Below, piece by piece: positions 33,236 through 39,840 of a stretch of DNA of 53,224 nucleotides. Origin of the DNA: Halodesulfovibrio spirochaetisodalis. Its GTDB lineage: Bacteria; Desulfobacterota; Desulfovibrionia; Desulfovibrionales; Desulfovibrionaceae. Position 1 is the first letter of the stretch. Each line of letters starts with the position of its first letter. The notes under the pieces are model-generated. The model made no database searches, had not been told where the DNA came from, and was given only the letters and a program-made list of their open reading frames with translations. A program made the position numbers and the translations under genes. The DNA lies in the NCBI RefSeq assembly GCF_001672295.1, contig NZ_JXMS01000026.1:43914-97137 (forward strand), written 5' to 3'.

Positions 33236-33248
33236 TAACTTGTTGATT
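33236..33248 (-). promoter_or_regulatory. IHF-like site in the glnN control region
   Basis: Read on the minus strand, AATCAACAAGTTA fits the IHF consensus WATCAA-N4-TTR exactly. It is placed between the enhancer sites and the sigma-54 promoter, where IHF bends DNA in classical NtrC/NifA systems. It also overlaps one arm of AAATCAACA/TGTTGATTT (33210-33249). Confidence 0.55.
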
Positions 33249-33257
33249 TTACAACAC

Positions 33258-33273
33258 TGGCATCATCTGTGCT
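33258..33273 (+). promoter_or_regulatory. sigma-54 promoter of glnN
   Basis: TGGCATCATCTGTGCT: GG and GC separated by exactly ten bases, with TGGCA at -24 and TGC at -12. Transcription should begin near 33285, giving a ~75-base leader before glnN. Confidence 0.85.
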
Positions 33274-33359
33274 TTATATTTTTGCAAAACAAAACGCAGA
33301 CGCCAGAAAACGGCGTGTACCATTTATATTGCGCGAATCAGTGTAAAGGAGAGATTTTC

Positions 33360-35540
33360 ATGAGTGGATCGTTAGCAAGACTTAATGCCATTTCGGCAGT
33401 AAACAACGCAACAACAACAAACAAGCCTTTAAACTTCAGCGAAGAAAAGCCAACCGATCTGTTCGGCTGCAACGTGTTCAATGACAAAGTCATGCAAGAA
33501 CACCTCCCGAAGGCTGTGTACAAATCTCTCAAGCGCACAATTGAAAATGGCGAGCAGATGGACCCATCCATTGCAGATGCAGTTGCAGCAGCAATGAAAG
33601 AGTGGGCTCTTTCCAGAGGTGCGACTCACTACACACACGTATTTTACCCTCTGACCGGCCTCACTGCTGAGAAGCATGACAGCTTCCTTGAGCCGGACGG
33701 ACGCGGCGGCGCTATTGCGCAGTTCTCTGGATCTACCCTTATTCAGGGTGAACCGGACGCATCCAGCTTCCCTAACGGTGGACTTCGTACCACTTTTGAA
33801 GCTCGTGGCTACACTGCATGGGACCTTACAAACCCTGCATACCTGCTTGAAAATGACAACGGCATTTTCCTGTGTATCCCGACAGCGTTCGTTTCCTGGA
33901 CCGGTGAAGCACTCGACAAGAAAACTCCGCTCCTTCGTTCCAACCAGGCTGTTCACACTCAGGCCAGCCGCTTGCTCAAGCTGCTCGGTCACGAAAATTT
34001 CGATCGCATCCAGAACTTTGCCGGTGTTGAGCAGGAATACTTCCTTGTTGACCGCAACTTCTACTTCTCCCGTCCGGACCTCTACCTTGCAGGCCGCACA
34101 CTCTTCGGTGCAAAGCCAGCGAAAGGTCAGGAGCAGGATGACCACTACTTCGGTACCATCCCGAAACGTGTTCTCGCCTTCATGATTGAAGCAGAGCGCG
34201 AACTTTACAAACTCGGTGTGCCGGTAAAAACCCGTCACAACGAAGTAGCACCTGGTCAGTACGAAATCGCACCGATGTTTGAAGATTCAAACCTCGCAAA
34301 CGATCACAACCAGATGATCATGAGCGTGCTCAAAAGCGTTGCAAAACGTTACGGTATGGCGTGCCTGATGCACGAAAAACCGTTTGCAGGCATCAACGGT
34401 TCCGGTAAACACCTCAACTACTCCATCGGTAACGGTCAGTTCGGCAGCCTTTTCGATCCGGGCGAAACCCCGCACGAAAACGCACAGTTCCTCCTCTTCT
34501 GTGCTGCTATGATCCGTGCTGTGCACAAACACGGTTCTTTGCTCCGCTCAAGCGTAGCTTGTGCAAGCAACGACCACCGTCTCGGTGCTAACGAAGCTCC
34601 TCCTGCAATCATGTCCATCTTCCTCGGCGACCAGCTCACCGATATCTTTGACCAGATTAAAGAAGGTGCTGAAGTTACCGGTAAAGAAAAAGGCATCCTG
34701 CGTGTCGGCGTTGACACACTGCCTCCGATCCCAATGGATGCAGGTGACCGTAACCGCACAAGTCCATTTGCATTTACCGGCAACCGCTTTGAATTCCGTG
34801 CAGTAGGCTCAAGCCAGTCCATCGCTGGTGCACAGCTTGTTCTGAACACTATTCTTTCTGAGTCTCTCGCATACATCTCTGATCGTCTTGAGAAACTTGT
34901 TGAAGACGAAAGTGTTGAGCTCAACGTAGCGGTTACAAAAATTATTCAGGAAATCATGAAAGAACACGACAACGTTGTGTTCAACGGTGACGGTTACTCT
35001 GAAGAGTGGACAATTGAAGCTGCAAAACGTGGTCTTGCGAACCTTCGCACTACCCCGGAAGCGCTTCCTGCACTCAACAGCCCGTCCAGTGTTGCTGTAT
35101 TTGAAGAATTTGGCGTTCTGTCCAACCGCGAACTCGACAGCCGCGTTTCCATCTTCTTCGAGCAGTACATCAACACACTGCAGACTGAAGTTGAACTTGC
35201 GATCAAGCTTGCCCGTACTTCCATTCTTCCGGCTGCTGTACGTTACCAGACTGAACTGGCACGCAACTGCCTGAACATGAAAGAACTCGGCCTCGGCTGC
35301 ATCACCGGCCCGCTGACCAAGCTGACCGAAAACCTGAATGGCCTTGAGTCCGCTGCGAATGAACTCGAATCCATGCTCGCAAAGTCCCATGCAGGCGAAC
35401 AGGAACATGCACACTCCCTGTGCAATGAGACACTGCCAGTGATGACAGAGCTTCGTGAGTACGCAGACAAACTTGAAGAAATCGTTGCTGACGATCTCTG
35501 GCCTCTGCCTACCTACCAGGAAATGCTGTTCATTAAATAG
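33360..35540 (+). CDS. glnN: glutamine synthetase type III
   Basis: ATP-dependent ligation of ammonia to glutamate; 726 residues, the large GSIII class rather than the ~450-residue GSI. Class features are the N-terminal [70 protein letters not shown] and the long C-terminal extension after the catalytic core. The start at 33360 has AAAGGAGAG. Transcription is predicted from a sigma-54 promoter with two upstream activator sites, so it should respond to nitrogen limitation. A terminator follows, and glnA comes next as a separate unit. Confidence 0.95.
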
Positions 35541-35570
35541 CGCTATCCAGCACCTCCAATTGACAAAGCC

Positions 35571-35605
35571 ACTCCCCTGTTTTGAAAAAGACAGGGGAGT
35601 TTTTT
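35571..35605 (+). terminator. intrinsic terminator of glnN
   Basis: ACTCCCCTGT (35571-35580) and ACAGGGGAGT (35591-35600) with a ten-base loop and six T. It separates glnN from glnA transcripts. Confidence 0.9.
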
Positions 35606-35646
35606 ATGCACTGATAAAATTAAGTATAGAAAAAAATTCCATTGTG

Positions 35647-35660
35647 TGACAATTTTGTAA
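35647..35660. promoter_or_regulatory. enhancer-binding site of glnA
   Basis: TGACAATTTTGTAA matches the glnN sites (TGACAA-N2-TTGT-A/C-A). It lies about 80 bp above the glnA -24 element, a typical activator distance. A looser ACAA-N5-TTGT follows at 35661-35673. Confidence 0.65.
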
Positions 35661-35732
35661 ACAAGGATATTGTTAACTGCTTGCTATTCATTGGGATGCT
35701 GATTAATGATGCGACCGTGAATAACAGGGATG

Positions 35733-35748
35733 TGGCATAAAAAACGCA
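35733..35748 (+). promoter_or_regulatory. sigma-54 promoter of glnA
   Basis: TGGCATAAAAAACGCA: correct GG-N10-GC spacing and TGGCA at -24. The start of transcription should be near 35760, giving a ~98-base leader. Confidence 0.8.
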
Positions 35749-35857
35749 ATCATTTTCAATGTCACGCAGTAAGTCCCGCATAAATTGTAATATTTTCAGG
35801 AACAAGGTAGATATCTGCAGTCCACTTTATGCAGAATTTGCCTTTGGGAGGTATGTT

Positions 35858-37207
35858 GTGACCGAAGAATACACTGTGTTCAACTGCAAGAACGGTGATG
35901 ACGTTATCCGTGCAGTAAAAGAGCACAACATTAGTTTTGTACAGTTTTGGTTTGTTGATATCCTTGGCACCCTTAAAAGCTTTCAGGTAACGCCGAAAGA
36001 GCTTGAAGCAGCGTTCGAAGAAGGCATGGGCTTTGACGGCTCTTCCATTCTCGGATTCACACGCATTGAAGAATCCGACATGGTAGCCTATCCTGACGCA
36101 ACCACATTCCAGATTTGCTCATGGCGTCCGTCCGACCGCCCTGTGGCTCGCATGTTCTGCGACATTAAAAATCCGGACGGCACCCCGTATGAAGGTGATC
36201 CCCGCTATATCCTCCGCAAGCTTATCGAAAAAGCAGCACAAAAGGGATACACCTACTATGTCGGCCCTGAGCTTGAATTTTTTCTCTTCACAGATTCCAA
36301 TAATCCGCAGGCTATCGACTCCGGTGGATACTTTGACGCACCACCGCTCGACATGGGCAACGATGTGCGCCGTGAAATCATTTTTGCGCTGGAAAAAATG
36401 GGCGTGGATGTTGAATACTCCCATCACGAAGTAGCTCCTTCACAGCACGAAATCGATCTCAGATACTCTGAAGCGCTTAGAATGGCAGACATTGCCATGA
36501 CCTATAAGGTGGTAGTGAAAGAGATTGCCCGCAAACACGGCTACTACGCTACCTTTATGCCTAAGCCGCTGTTCGGTGAAAACGGCTCCGGCATGCACGT
36601 ACACCAGTCATTATTTAAGAACGGTAAAAACGCCTTCTTCGATGCTAATGACCCGCACAACCTTTCCAGCGAAGCACGCAGCTACATTGCAGGTCTACTG
36701 AAGCACGCTAAGGAATACACCTGCATCACTAACCAGTGGGTAAACTCCTACAAGCGTCTGTTACCGGGCTATGAGGCTCCGGTGTATGTCGCATGGGCAC
36801 AGTGCAACCGCTCTTCCCTTATCCGTGTACCGATGTACAAACCGGGCAAAGAGCAGGCAACACGCATTGAACTTCGTAGTCCTGACCCTGCAGCTAACCC
36901 GTACCTATGCTTTGCTGCTACCCTTGGTGCCGGCCTTGAAGGTATTGAAAAAGGGTACGAGCTTCCTGCTGCGGTTGAAGAAAATATTTTCGCTATGGAA
37001 ACAGAAGATCTTACCGCAAAGGGTATTGAGTCATTACCTGGTTCTCTCCATGAAGCGGTTGAACACCTCGAACAGTCAGAGCTTATGAAAGGTATTCTCG
37101 GAGATCACATGCACTCCAACTTTGTGAACAACAAACGAATAGAGTGGGACGAATACCGTACCCATGTTTCCGAGTTTGAACTTCGCAAATACTTGCCGAT
37201 TCTCTAG
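35858..37207 (+). CDS. glnA: glutamine synthetase type I
   Basis: Dodecameric-type GSI of 449 residues, ligating ammonia to glutamate. N-terminal beta-grasp with DILGTLKSFQV, then MGFDGSSILGF, GPELEFFLF (metal ligands), HHEVAPSQHEIDLRY, NGSGMHVHQSLF and RIELRSPDPAANPY. The region where GSI-beta enzymes carry the adenylylated Tyr (NLYDLPPEE) reads NIFAMETEDL, so control by adenylylation is unlikely; the class is GSI-alpha-like. The start is GTG at 35858 with GGGAGG six bases before it; earlier in-frame codons lie inside the leader. It has its own sigma-54 promoter and two terminators. Confidence 0.95.
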   Translation: MTEEYTVFNCKNGDDVIRAVKEHNISFVQFWFVDILGTLKSFQVTPKELEAAFEEGMGFDGSSILGFTRIEESDMVAYPDATTFQICSWRPSDRPVARMFCDIKNPDGTPYEGDPRYILRKLIEKAAQKGYTYYVGPELEFFLFTDSNNPQAIDSGGYFDAPPLDMGNDVRREIIFALEKMGVDVEYSHHEVAPSQHEIDLRYSEALRMADIAMTYKVVVKEIARKHGYYATFMPKPLFGENGSGMHVHQSLFKNGKNAFFDANDPHNLSSEARSYIAGLLKHAKEYTCITNQWVNSYKRLLPGYEAPVYVAWAQCNRSSLIRVPMYKPGKEQATRIELRSPDPAANPYLCFAATLGAGLEGIEKGYELPAAVEENIFAMETEDLTAKGIESLPGSLHEAVEHLEQSELMKGILGDHMHSNFVNNKRIEWDEYRTHVSEFELRKYLPIL

Positions 37208-37413: not shown

Positions 37414-37731
37414 CTACATGTGTCTGCCGTTATGACCACCATTGTGTCCGCTGTAGTGACCACCGTAATGGCCGCCGTGGCTACCGTGTCCGCCATGCAT
37501 TCCAAAGAAATTACATACAGAATCCCACATTGAAGAAGAGTTGGCTTTGCCCTGTTCTGAAAGCTGGTACATATGATTTCCATTCTGTCCCATCGGGCAT
37601 GCATATCCCTGAGTTTGAGTGTACCCGCTGTTGTTCATGGCCATGTGCCCCATTGGAGCGTTGTTTGCGGCAAATGCCATTGAACCTGTTAACACCATAA
37701 TAACAGCCGCAGCTGCGATAAACTTTTTCAT
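37414..37731 (-). CDS. secreted small His/Gly-rich protein, probable metal binder
   Basis: A 105-residue exported protein. A signal peptide (residues 1-21, cut after SMAFA) is followed by a Met/Asn/Gln-rich stretch with two Cys (45 and 73). The C-terminal tail has eight His in GGH/GSH/SGH spacing (79-104), a typical site for Ni, Zn, Co or Cu. No family is recognised; a periplasmic metal store or scavenger is inferred. The start at 37731 gives a clean signal peptide. An exact-spacing sigma-54 promoter lies 40-56 bp upstream, so the protein is likely switched on by an enhancer-binding regulator, which is unusual for such a protein. Confidence 0.75.
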   Translation of the reverse strand: MKKFIAAAAVIMVLTGSMAFAANNAPMGHMAMNNSGYTQTQGYACPMGQNGNHMYQLSEQGKANSSSMWDSVCNFFGMHGGHGSHGGHYGGHYSGHNGGHNGRHM

Positions 37732-37771: not shown

Positions 37772-37787
37772 AGCAACCTGTGTGCCA
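37772..37787 (-). promoter_or_regulatory. sigma-54 promoter of the His-rich protein gene
   Basis: On the minus strand: TGGCACACAGGTTGCT, which fits TGGCAC-N6-TTGC with GG-N10-GC spacing. Transcription should start near 37761, about 30 bases before the ATG. No activator palindrome like those of glnN or glnA is visible upstream; a direct repeat GTCAT (37830-37847) is the only hint. Confidence 0.8.
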
Positions 37788-38065: not shown

Positions 38066-38479
38066 ATGATTGAATATGTCGTAAGTGCATGCCTTGCCGG
38101 CTGCAAATGCAGATATGATGGAGAGGCCACTGCGAGTGAGCAGGTGCAACAGCTGGTACGGGAAGGTCGCGCTTTGCCAGTCTGTCCTGAGCAGCTTGGG
38201 GGCTTTCCTACTCCGAGAATACCTTTTGAATTGCTGAATGGACGTGCTGTCTCTAAAGACGGGCAGGATATTACTGACCAGATGAATCGCGGAGTGGAAG
38301 AGGCATACAAACTTGTTGAGCTGGCAGGATGCACAAAAGCGATTCTACAAGCCCGCTCCCCGTCCTGCGGCAAGGGTGTTATCTATGACGGGTCATTTTC
38401 AGGAACCAAAATCAGCGGCAACGGCCTGTTCGCAGCAAAACTGCTCGAAATGGGGCTGGACGTAACCTCACATGATTAG
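38066..38479 (+). CDS. DUF523 protein, TudS-type thiouracil desulfidase
   Basis: A 137-residue protein of the DUF523 family, in which TudS was shown to remove sulfur from 2-thiouracil with a [4Fe-4S] cluster. Conserved segments are VSACLAGCKCRYDG (C9, C13, C15), LPVCPEQLGGFPTPR (C40) and QARSPSCGKG (C101); C9, C40 and C101 are the likely cluster ligands. The start at 38066 is preceded by GGGAG. It may salvage thiouracil from degraded thio-tRNA, which fits the ttcA and ttuA genes in this window. The enhancer-like palindromes of the next unit start about ten bases after its stop. Confidence 0.85.
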   Translation: MIEYVVSACLAGCKCRYDGEATASEQVQQLVREGRALPVCPEQLGGFPTPRIPFELLNGRAVSKDGQDITDQMNRGVEEAYKLVELAGCTKAILQARSPSCGKGVIYDGSFSGTKISGNGLFAAKLLEMGLDVTSHD

Positions 38480-38488
38480 CTTTGGCTA

Positions 38489-38578
38489 TGTTGTGCACAA
38501 CAGGCTCTCTGCACATGTGCAACTCTTGCACATGCGAACTTGCACATGTGCTTTTCTTTTAGTGCAAACTTTGCACAT
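38489..38578. promoter_or_regulatory. cluster of five palindromic activator sites
   Basis: Five sites in 90 bp: TGTTGTGCACAACA (38489-38502, perfect), TGCACATGTGCA (38510-38521, perfect), TTGCACATGCGAA (38526-38538), TTGCACATGTGCTT (38540-38553) and TGCAAACTTTGCA (38563-38575, perfect around a central C). The shared core is TGCACATG. They lie 65-150 bp above a sigma-54 promoter, the usual place for enhancer-binding activators. Confidence 0.75.
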
Positions 38579-38639
38579 ATTTTTTACCAAAAATTCTGTA
38601 CGTAAAAATAAACACCTGTTTTATTTGATATAAAACTTT

Positions 38640-38655
38640 TGGCACGCTGTATGCT
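38640..38655 (+). promoter_or_regulatory. sigma-54 promoter of the putative sRNA
   Basis: TGGCACGCTGTATGCT is an almost ideal match to TGGCACG-N4-TTGCW, including all seven bases of the -24 element and GG-N10-GC spacing. The expected start is near 38666. No coding gene follows for 600 bp. Confidence 0.85.
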
Positions 38656-38665
38656 TATATACAAT

Positions 38666-38976
38666 CAAACAGCATAGAGAACGCAAGTAACATTGCAACT
38701 ACATAGTTTGCTCCTTTCCGCATTGTGGCAGATGCGTAAAAAAAACTAGTATACACTCCTCGTTGAAAACGTGTCGATTGCTTCAGTCCCCCTTACACAC
38801 CCCTGGGCAGACTGAACAACTGCCTCTAGCAAAGGCATCTGGACTGTACCCCCCACACTGGTGCAGTCAGGGTTACAAAAGAAATGGTATACCTCCTCAC
38901 CATTTCAATCAGGTCCCAACGGGGGTTGAATGTTCAACCCCCGCTTACTGAGCAAGTAACAGTTTTAACTGTTTTT
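38666..38976 (+). ncRNA. putative sigma-54-dependent regulatory small RNA
   Basis: About 310 nt from the predicted start to a U-tract. Hairpins in order: CGCAT/ATGCG (38719-38736); TTCAGTC/GACTGAA (38782-38816) with a loop containing CCCCC and CCCC; TGCCT/AGGCA (38821-38837); GACTGTACC/GGTGCAGTC (38842-38868, loop CCCCACACU); GAAATGGT/ACCATTTC (38881-38906, loop AUACCUCCUC); CGGGGGTTGAA/TTCAACCCCCG (38920-38943); and the terminator. CUCCUUUC (38711-38718) and ACCUCCUC (38891-38898) resemble the 3' end of 16S rRNA and could bind ribosome sites of target mRNAs. The 62-codon frame at 38763-38951 has no ribosome site. No known RNA family is recognised. Confidence 0.65.
38958..38976 (+). terminator. 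terminator T1 of the putative sRNA
   Basis: AACAGT-TTTA-ACTGTT followed by TTTA. The stem is short, but it directly follows the strong CGGGGG/CCCCCG hairpin. Read-through would end at 39079. Confidence 0.65.
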
Positions 38977-39046
38977 ATATATACATAGACGAGCATACTC
39001 ACTCACACTAGCCCACGTTTTTTTCCTCCTTTAGCAAGGCCTCTTC

Positions 39047-39079
39047 TACTCCCCGACCACCATCGGGGAGTACTTTTTT
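39047..39079 (+). terminator. strong intrinsic terminator T2
   Basis: TACTCCCCGA (39047-39056) pairs with TCGGGGAGTA (39063-39072) around a six-base loop, followed by C and six T. It has no gene on its upstream side for 560 bp, which supports a non-coding transcript. Between T1 and T2 lies CCTCCTTTA (39025-39033), another anti-Shine-Dalgarno-like stretch. Just downstream is the palindrome TGCGCATGCGCA (39097-39108), similar to the upstream activator sites. Confidence 0.87.
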
Positions 39080-39267
39080 GTGCTCTGCTCTTCACCTGCG
39101 CATGCGCAACACCTGTCTTTTCGTTTAATCATCCCTTGAAAAAACTGCGCAGACAGCAATTTTACGTAATTTTTCTGTCATGTTGTGTCGCATACACGTC
39201 TTGTCCCCACATATGCCCCCCAGAGTAATCATAGAAGCTATAAAAAACGGCTGTGTACCCTACGGGA

Positions 39268-39840
39268 ATGGAACAGAATCTTTACTATATGATGCACTCG
39301 ACCAGTGACCATAAAACAGAACTCATCAAGGCTCTGTCTTCTTTGAACAAGCAGTATGCAGGAATAGTGCGCCGTAAACCACCGGGGGAAGACCGGTGGT
39401 CTCCAATTATGGTGCTTGAACACATTATCCTTACAGAACGCTCCCTGTTAGGCGGGTTGCCAAACCCTGAAGACATGGAACCGGTGCGACGAACACTGGG
39501 GAATAAAATTTCCTACGGTATTACATCGTACGTTTTTAACCTGCACCTGCTGCTTCCTGTACCGGAACTGGCTCTGTATCCTAAAGGCGAATACGATATT
39601 GATGAGCTCTCCTCCATGTGGGATGAAAACCACAAATGGCTGCGAGCATTCATCACAGAAGCGCCACGCGACTGCCTTGCGGAAAACTATTTTACCCACA
39701 AAATAGCCGGCCCCATGAATATTCAGCAAGCCATGAGCCTGAACCTCGCCCATATTGTTATGCATGAATTCCAGCTTTCACATATTTTTATGGAACTCAA
39801 CGTGCAAACGCCTCTTCTTCCGTATGAGCCATCAACATAA
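39268..39840 (+). CDS. DinB-like four-helix protein
   Basis: A 190-residue protein with the layout of the DinB/YfiT-like four-helix bundle: helix with LIKALSSLNKQYAG, the W-S-x-x-x-V-L-E-H motif (DRWSPIMVLEHIILTE) carrying a metal-ligand His, and the C-terminal NLAHIVMHEFQLSHIFMEL with further His. Members bind a divalent metal and include thiol-dependent transferases; the exact function is unknown. The ATG at 39268 is chosen; GTG at 39253 and ATG at 39289 are alternatives, and none has a good ribosome site. It is convergent with dgkA across a terminator. Confidence 0.75.
   Translation: MEQNLYYMMHSTSDHKTELIKALSSLNKQYAGIVRRKPPGEDRWSPIMVLEHIILTERSLLGGLPNPEDMEPVRRTLGNKISYGITSYVFNLHLLLPVPELALYPKGEYDIDELSSMWDENHKWLRAFITEAPRDCLAENYFTHKIAGPMNIQQAMSLNLAHIVMHEFQLSHIFMELNVQTPLLPYEPST

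Follow-up and report, generated by a model that had tools for sequence, protein, structure and literature searches.

What does a sigma-54 promoter serve when no gene stands behind it? The question is raised by a gap of about 770 bases in the genome of Halodesulfovibrio spirochaetisodalis, between a DUF523 gene (38066–38479) and a DinB-type gene (39253–39840, a PF12867 match), in the window analysed here, which is the whole stretch of 53,224 nucleotides (nt) from contig NZ_JXMS01000026.1 (positions 43,914 to 97,137; assembly GCF_001672295.1). A preliminary description of the sequence had read positions 38489–39079 as enhancer sites, a sigma-54 core promoter, a structured RNA and a terminator, and all of these are present. 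In order, the gap contains five TTGCACA-type palindromes or half-palindromes (38491–38577), the core (38640–38655), a structured stretch, and a strong terminator (39047–39079). The computational evidence supports the presence of a non-coding RNA gene of the sigma-54 type, here called RNA A, with C-rich loops resembling the anti-Shine-Dalgarno sequence and with compensatory changes in its stems.

The near-ideal promoter without a gene behind it, reported in the preliminary description, was borne out: the core is the sole perfect match in the window to the sigma-54 pattern, and no conserved reading frame with a ribosome site follows. The elements upstream of the RNA are:

38491–38577, no strand assigned: enhancer cluster (upstream activating sequence, UAS) of five TTGCACA/TGTGCAA-type sites, namely TTGTGCACAA (38491–38500), CTGCACATGTGCAA (38509–38522), TTGCACATGCGAA (38526–38538), TTGCACATGTGC (38540–38551) and GTGCAAACTTTGCACA (38562–38577); the cluster is kept in the six-genome alignment.
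38640–38655, plus strand: sigma-54 core promoter TGGCACGCTGTATGCT, with no mismatches to TGGCACGNNNNWTGCW; conserved in the six-genome alignment.

Cores with up to two mismatches are not in excess in the window (16 matches, against a chance mean of 18.9), and perfect cores number two in the genome itself against one in the reversed control, and 39 against 11 across 10 genomes of the genus. The strict core is therefore not rare genome-wide and is weak evidence by itself; it is the conservation and the upstream sites that carry weight. Likewise, the enhancer palindrome alone, with three mismatches allowed, is not above chance in the window (six found, 4.67 expected). The half-site words TGCACA and TGTGCA, on the other hand, occur seven times in the 220 bases 5′ of the promoter, against a mean of 0.21 and a maximum of three in 1045 other windows. 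When the site and the core are combined as TTGCACA, 55–75 nt and TGGCACNNNNNNTGC, there are 108 matches in 81 of 288 genomes of the family, and two in the reversed control. The transcription start is predicted at about 38666, taken as 12 nt past the GC element.

From here to the last terminator (38667–39079, plus strand), the predicted fold has a free energy of −121.3 kcal/mol (z −5.3), which none of 100 shuffled sequences equalled. At the gathering threshold Rfam had no match to RNA A, and the 10 matches to 38480–39250 with E values up to 10 do not include a Qrr RNA. The C-rich loops were also found where they had been described, at 38850–38858 (CCCCCACAC), 38891–38898 (ACCTCCTC) and 38711–38718 (CTCCTTTC). 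The strong terminator that had been described lies at 39047–39079, whereas an end near 38.98 kb is less likely: the 3′ part, with a further CCUCCUUU, is also conserved, and RNA A therefore most likely runs to 39079. At most, the UUUUUAUAUAUA stretch at 38972–38983 is a possible early terminator. The parts of the RNA are:

38666–39079, plus strand: RNA A, a structured RNA about 413 nt long and presumed to be non-coding, based on the fold, the homologues and the lack of a kept frame.
38711–38718, plus strand: anti-Shine-Dalgarno-like stretch CUCCUUUC / CTCCTTTC, read from the sequence; kept in three of six close homologues.
38719–38736, plus strand: hairpin with the conserved loop UGUGGCAG, seen in 10 homologues of the genus.
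38753–38774, plus strand: hairpin 3, UCCUC; a bulge in the window RNA, a UUCCUC loop in the GC-rich homologues.
38782–38816, plus strand: hairpin 4, internal loop CCCCCUUACACACCCC; helix 2, with 90 percent pairing and not one pair altered on both sides.
38821–38837, plus strand: hairpin 5, GCCU-CUAGCAA-AGGC; helix 3, which never varies and is hence uninformative.
38842–38868, plus strand: hairpin 6, loop CCCCCACACUG; 100 percent paired, three of eight pairs changed on both sides.
38881–38906, plus strand: hairpin 7, loop UAUACCUCCUCA, the main anti-Shine-Dalgarno loop; 91.3 percent paired, one of eight pairs changed on both sides.
38920–38943, plus strand: GC-rich terminator-like hairpin 1; helix 6, 98.3 percent paired, no U-tract directly behind.
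38958–38983, plus strand: weak hairpin AACAGU-UUUA-ACUGUU followed by the UUUUUAUAUAUA stretch, read from the sequence; conserved in the six-genome alignment.
39022–39034, plus strand: 3′ anti-Shine-Dalgarno stretch UUUCCUCCUUUAG, nearly invariant in six genomes.
39047–39079, plus strand: intrinsic terminator 2, CUCCCCGA..UCGGGGAG (stem 39047–39072) with TTTTTT; conserved in the six-genome alignment.

For hairpin 3, the pairing in the window RNA and the register across clades are the author's reading rather than a predicted consensus. UUGUGGCAGA is invariant in the 10 homologues of the genus while its stem varies, from GCAU/AUGC to CUUU/AAGG types. A CCCCCUU-type loop of hairpin 4 recurs in the GC-rich homologues and in those of genus g43 (Nitratidesulfovibrio), the hairpin 6 loop is UCCCUAC in the GC-rich homologues, and CCUCCU precedes the last terminator in four GC-rich homologues too.

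It could be argued that the opposite strand is the functional one, its conserved GGAGG words being the Shine-Dalgarno sequences of small genes or leader peptides. In some genomes short open frames come after AAAGGAGG near 39030 on this strand, a TTG-started frame (MLSKRG..., 16–57 residues) begins in all six close homologues, and the minus strand also folds better than shuffled sequences (z −3.9). However, the TTG frame is not flagged with a ribosome site and diverges past six residues, the best-shared eight-residue stretches of any frame on either strand are found in three of the six genomes, and the promoter, sites and U-tract terminator all read on the plus strand. Across the six close homologues, neither strand keeps a reading frame that has a ribosome site. 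A coding minus strand is the least probable of the explanations considered here, and barely credible.

Evidence on the conservation of the RNA itself comes from its stems, for which the preliminary description had proposed a covariance check in relatives: compensatory changes are present, and the C-rich loops are kept. Over six local helices in the six close homologues, 95.9 percent of cells pair, compared with 33–51 percent when the structure is slid along the alignment. Four pairs are changed on both sides, against a shuffled mean of 1.7 (11 of 500 shuffles as high), while no shuffle out of 500 attained the covariation score. Using RNAalifold, 18 of 78 pairs are changed on both sides among four GC-rich sequences and six of 61 among the six close sequences. 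In joint MAFFT alignments the register of the hairpin 6 and hairpin 7 arms did not agree between clades, and these alignments were rejected for pair counts in favour of loop-anchored stems. The anchored stems gave nine distinct hairpin 6 stems in 10 genus rows (10 of 22 rows used) and 11 distinct hairpin 7 stems in 13 rows (13 of the 21 rows with the core, from 22 RNAs scanned, eight g43 stems of fewer than six pairs being excluded). As such stems were picked for being paired, it is their diversity alone that is evidence, not their 100 percent pairing.

How widely is this RNA found? A DNA search of 59 relatives recovered the RNA A region in the genome itself and in five members of the genus, at 77–81 percent identity. 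There were two further matches, one of 62 bases in genome G009, which is the promoter of a second RNA described below, and a weak one of 40 bases in another genus (G016, E 0.007), where no sigma-54 core was seen. A plasmid search gave no match. In the remaining four genomes of the genus, an RNA of the same layout was found by searching for the enhancer palindrome and reading the stretches, bringing the number to 10 out of 10. These four are GC-rich and have little stem sequence in common with the window; their motif order (UGUGGCAG, UUCCUC, CCCC(C)UUU, UCCCUAC, CCUCCUC) nevertheless parallels that of the window RNA (UGUGGCAG, UCCUC, CCCCCUU, CCCCCACAC, CCUCCUC). Outside the genus, a recognisable homologue is present in all eight Nitratidesulfovibrio genomes. 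Across the scored RNAs the length from predicted start to last terminator is 405–676 nt. The 5′ neighbour serves as a synteny marker:

38066–38479, plus strand: DUF523 / 2-thiouracil desulfurase gene (PF04463, E 2.3e-42), outside the RNA.

In the loci checked, one GC-rich genome and one Nitratidesulfovibrio-type record, DUF523 is 5′ of the RNA and the 3′ gene differs from the DinB-type gene of the window. Since an RNA of the same layout occurs across the genus and Nitratidesulfovibrio, where checked with DUF523 in front and a different gene behind, RNA A is, by its sequence context, an old stand-alone RNA gene. The same loci bear on the suggestion that it is instead a long leader or riboswitch of the DinB-type gene. 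That gene is on the same strand about 170 bases downstream, and at least two close relatives (L004 and L006) have a similar gene-start sequence behind the RNA. An intrinsic terminator ends the RNA, however, the next gene is both different and convergent in the two loci just mentioned, and there is no Rfam match. A leader is thus very improbable.

What, then, might RNA A do? The core CCTCCTC is present in 21 of the 22 RNAs scanned, and the words CCTCC, TCCTC, CTCCT and TCCTT occur 9–14 times per RNA (overlaps counted), compared with shuffle means of 1.9–4.5. Such anti-Shine-Dalgarno 5-mers are 2.4- to 7-fold over shuffled sequences (p ≤0.016) in all 12 RNAs scored; 12 of 18 RNAs were scored, because the terminator pattern missed six from g43. 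The other strand has 0–2 such words. Those in the RNA have a predicted unpaired probability of 0.46–0.82, against 0.37–0.49 elsewhere in the RNA, and this exposure beats shifted masks at ≤0.023 in 11 of 12 RNAs.

The preliminary description likened the layout to that of the Qrr RNAs of Vibrio. These are about one quarter of the length of RNA A. There are likenesses: a sigma-54 promoter, a response-regulator-type activator with an Hpt partner in some genomes, and a palindrome of the TTGCA..TGCAA type. The published LuxO site is TTGCAWWWTGCAA with a three-base spacer, whereas the UAS of RNA A is TTGCACATGTGCAA-like with a four-base spacer. Combined with the absence of a Qrr match in Rfam, the greater length, and the lack of an Hfq family match in any of the 10 genomes of the genus (control matches in five of 14 genomes), this does not support kinship with Qrr. 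ProQ family matches were likewise absent from all 10 genomes, with positive controls.

RNAs that work through C-rich loops without Hfq are a closer comparison. RNAIII of Staphylococcus aureus belongs to a Gram-positive host, encodes a peptide and is driven by agr. It is compared here as a mechanism class, that of a long structured RNA with C-rich loops, and no sequence relation is claimed; in the predicted structure of RNA A, C-rich loops are exposed on stable hairpins, as they are in RNAIII-like RNAs. According to PMC2837412, the C-rich loops of RNAIII pair with ribosome sites and Hfq is not needed. In alpha-proteobacteria, NfeR1/alpha-r14 is an RNA of 123 nt with three identical CCUCCUCCC motifs, under LsrB/NtrC control and Hfq-independent (PMC10746234). 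Like RNA A, whose hosts have no Hfq that was found, it has several hairpins that each carry a conserved anti-Shine-Dalgarno motif on divergent stems. It differs in that its three hairpins carry identical CCUCCUCCC motifs, whereas the loops found in RNA A are CCUCCUC, CCCCCAC or UCCCUAC, and UCCUC, and RNA A is 405–676 nt long with a promoter of the sigma-54 type. A long RNA with stable hairpins and several C-rich loops is the RNAIII/NfeR1 design for pairing without Hfq, and RNA A is taken to be a stress-induced translational repressor acting in the same mode.

The enhancer sites point to a candidate for its activator. An NtrC-type response regulator (receiver, AAA+ and HTH_8 domains) encoded beside a kinase was the best match in all 10 genomes of the genus, as well as in 20 of 20 genomes of other genera, which had been picked for having the site pattern; in the genome of the window its locus is G000:C11:46300. 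Its DNA-binding helix, GGHRERTADALGISRRTLQYKL, is nearly identical across the loci read and across genera. At the start of the kinase gene there are four to seven half-site words in six genus loci, against background means of 0.10–0.37 and a maximum of two (six scored of the seven loci fetched from the 10 genus genomes), and TGGCAC..TTTTTC is present there in four of the six. In G081 and G082, which belong to two other genera, a small Metal_resist gene near the kinase-regulator pair, above the cut-off and with a signal-like start, stands behind the sites and a sigma-54 core. An Hpt protein (PF01627) follows the pair in two GC-rich genomes. As the operon of the pair carries the same sites, and as the sites in other genera precede a metal-resistance gene beside it, the activator of RNA A is likely to be this Zra-like pair of histidine kinase and sigma-54 response regulator.

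A system of this kind has been mapped in D. vulgaris. DVU1419 is described, in a legend that defines HK and Hpt, as a sigma-54 regulator whose gene belongs to an operon of three and which shifts the region upstream of itself (PMC3333781); an 18-bp motif is given for it, and its targets are ‘DVU0036, DVU1418-DVU1419, ncRNA upstream of DVU3282’, in connection with envelope stress response and posttranscriptional regulation (PMC4641369). The likeness is of a kinase and sigma-54 regulator, self-regulated, with a non-coding RNA (ncRNA) as target; Nitratidesulfovibrio carries RNA A. As for control by such a system, the observations are half-site clusters common to RNA A and the kinase operon, Hpt in two GC-rich genomes and the identity of the helix. 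We infer that RNA A may be the counterpart of the DVU1419-controlled ncRNA of D. vulgaris Hildenborough. The view that this is an undescribed system thus stands in part: DVU1419, the best published match to the activator, has been mapped with an ncRNA among its targets, while no sequence, structure or function of that ncRNA was found in the available literature texts. Other sigma-54 ncRNAs of D. vulgaris in the same sources, at DVU0653, DVU0679 (Dv_sRNA2) and DVU2359 (PMC3333781, PMC4641369), adjoin activator genes, unlike RNA A of one g43 genome, where 18 kb read (L102) has no frame with such activator motifs.

The same enhancer pattern has more than one output. A second RNA-like stretch, RNA B, follows the same sites and sigma-54 core in six of the 10 genus genomes, including that of the window. 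It is 299–317 nt long with its own terminator and 90 percent mean column identity, and carries CACUCC, CACCUC and UACUCCC stretches. Two copies were scanned against Rfam, and neither matched a family at gathering; the fold of the genome's own copy has a z of −5.8:

Genome G000, contig C45, L079:1121–1435, plus strand: RNA B, own copy of about 315 nt; homologues in L080, L081, L082, L083 and L038.

An ordinary tandem glycine riboswitch (Rfam RF00504) is also present in L038 (5805–5970, minus strand). Of 27 loci with the pattern (L049–L075), 12 lead into a small gene that has a ribosome site and a signal-like start. Another 11 lead into no gene (seven RNA A of g43, one with a spurious frame, and four of genus g20), and four are other cases. 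The gene-free stretches of g20 (L068, L069, L070 and L072) are behind the same sites and core, three of the four with a CCUCCUCC hairpin loop, and may represent yet another RNA, the third, among the outputs of this system. In genus g5 (L096, L097 and L098), what follows the sites and core are small proteins whose end is SHOCT-like, above the cut-off in L097 only. In one g43 genome (G079), a site-plus-promoter match is upstream of an ADP-ribosylglycohydrolase gene (L110:6470–7990, minus strand), and there is no such match in the other seven.

The proposed course of events is as follows. A Zra-like two-component system (sensor kinase and sigma-54 regulator, with Hpt in some genomes) would sense envelope or metal stress, and its regulator would bind the TTGCACA sites and switch on the sigma-54 promoter (38640). 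The resulting transcript, about 413 nt long, would fold so that its hairpins hold the C-rich loops CCUCCUC, CCCCCAC, UCCUC and CCUCCUUU open, and each loop would pair with a Shine-Dalgarno sequence, so that ribosome binding is blocked on a set of mRNAs, the loop contact replacing Hfq. Repression of many mRNAs by RNA A is plausible. The conservation, the covarying stems, the predicted loop exposure, the clustering of sites at the RNA and the kinase operon, and the lack of an Hfq or ProQ match are results of computation; transcription, use of sigma-54, the activator, its signal, pairing and targets are what we infer when we propose that RNA A is, rather probably, an Hfq-independent, multi-loop, trans-acting translational repressor under a system of the DVU1418-1419 type.

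Several results weigh against this proposal. In the covariation analysis, further pair types are not above shuffling (435 of 500), two of the six helices never vary, and the structure used for the counts had itself been predicted from these sequences, so that it has an advantage over slid versions. In g43, the contiguous hairpin 7 stem has four or five pairs and is often matched by shuffled flanks (p 0.24–0.67), the hairpin 6 loop was not found, and one of the two RNAs scored is without significant loop exposure (0.18). The covariance model built from the six close homologues found only those six among the 59 genomes, and in the GC-rich loci it scored at best E 0.05–1.5, with hairpin 7 correctly placed in three; the link between clades therefore rests on motif order, promoter layout and synteny, not on model score. 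The −12 part ahead of the kinase operon is poor (TTTTTC), and the NCBIfam models ZraP, ZraS, AtoC, NtrC and ZraR match below their curated cut-offs, so that ‘Zra-like’ is a description and not a membership. The D. vulgaris counterpart of the activator may instead be the DVU3381 system, which has DVU3382-3381 and DVU3384 as targets, self-regulation and envelope stress, with no ncRNA listed.

A search for targets, suggested in the preliminary description, was negative. Searching 10 genomes for GTGAGGAGG, 3–9 bases and ATG gave 30 matches, against 16 in the reversed control, with no convincing target. One site, GTGAGGAGGGTTATATG, is kept in all six close genomes and was rejected as a target, as only 11–28 codons follow it and no gene of any length; this too counts against the proposal. 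It is found at L191 and L181 (also L188, L189, L193 and L199); in the two loci checked, its neighbours on the opposite strand are tRNA genes with identical scores, arrayed in tandem. As weak leads, the start of the gene for the TRAP transporter permease DctM carries GTGAGGAGG, the complement of the hairpin 7 loop, in five close genomes (L182, L184, L194, L196 and L180), and flgE-like and hisF-like genes, labelled by eye, have the site in two genomes each.

This unconvincing search, together with the absence of an Hfq or ProQ helper, would fit an RNA that titrates a protein in the manner of CsrB or CrcZ, its C-rich loops binding an RNA-binding protein that is soaked up during stress, and so would the several similar short motifs in loops along a long RNA. 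Yet the CCUCC loops exactly complement Shine-Dalgarno sequences, and they are not one uniform motif (CCUCCUC, CCCCCAC, UCCUC); to our knowledge, no bacterial titration protein recognises CCUCC. Titration is unlikely, while deserving some weight. Alternatively, the CCUCC loops may imitate the tail of 16S rRNA at its 3′ end; the RNA would then be a general brake on translation, acting on the ribosome or on a factor that reads the anti-Shine-Dalgarno. Several such stretches per RNA and the lack of an emerging specific target agree with this, as do ACCUCCUC and UUCCUCCUUU, which we take to resemble the 16S tail. According to published abstracts, CCUCC is the core of the 16S anti-Shine-Dalgarno. 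In the close homologues, however, flanks beyond CCUCC are conserved (CCUCCUCACC, CCCCCACAC), which a generic mimic would not need, and such a brake is less likely still.

Elsewhere in the window, a gene at 37417–37731 (minus strand) encodes a small protein with a signal-like start and a His/Gly-rich tail, with no Pfam match. It is about 40 bases behind a one-mismatch sigma-54 site, TGGCACACAGGTTGCT (37772–37787, minus strand), and TGGCACGCAGGTTGCT recurs in three genomes of the genus. At 33240–37207 (plus strand) there is a type III glutamine synthetase followed by an ordinary glutamine synthetase, and strong hairpin terminators come after them.

Sigma-54-linked ncRNAs in the same bacterial family and multi-hairpin anti-Shine-Dalgarno RNAs are already known. 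What is new is the sequence, anatomy and conservation of RNA A, RNA B, the Hfq-free setting, and the swap between a ZraP-like protein and RNA as the output behind one enhancer pattern; the literature search found no description of any of these. Tentatively, and with rather more doubt than attaches to repression by RNA A, a Zra-type envelope or metal stress system may have large anti-Shine-Dalgarno RNAs as its output in place of the ZraP chaperone, in bacteria without Hfq or ProQ. The same enhancer and sigma-54 module would drive ZraP-like genes in some genera, RNA A in others, the two RNAs A and B side by side in a single clade, and, in a third genus, short RNAs with a CCUCCUCC loop.

RNA-based control is little known in the sulfate reducers, a major group. 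RNA A offers a concrete example with a promoter, a likely activator and loops that are candidates for activity, and neither of the two best-known RNA chaperones, Hfq and ProQ, was found in its lineage. It would also give a sequence-level handle on an ncRNA merely listed in the D. vulgaris regulome papers. If the proposal is true, it would make multi-target repression without Hfq tractable in a Gram-negative bacterium and would be a sigma-54 counterpart to the sigma-E envelope-stress small RNAs.

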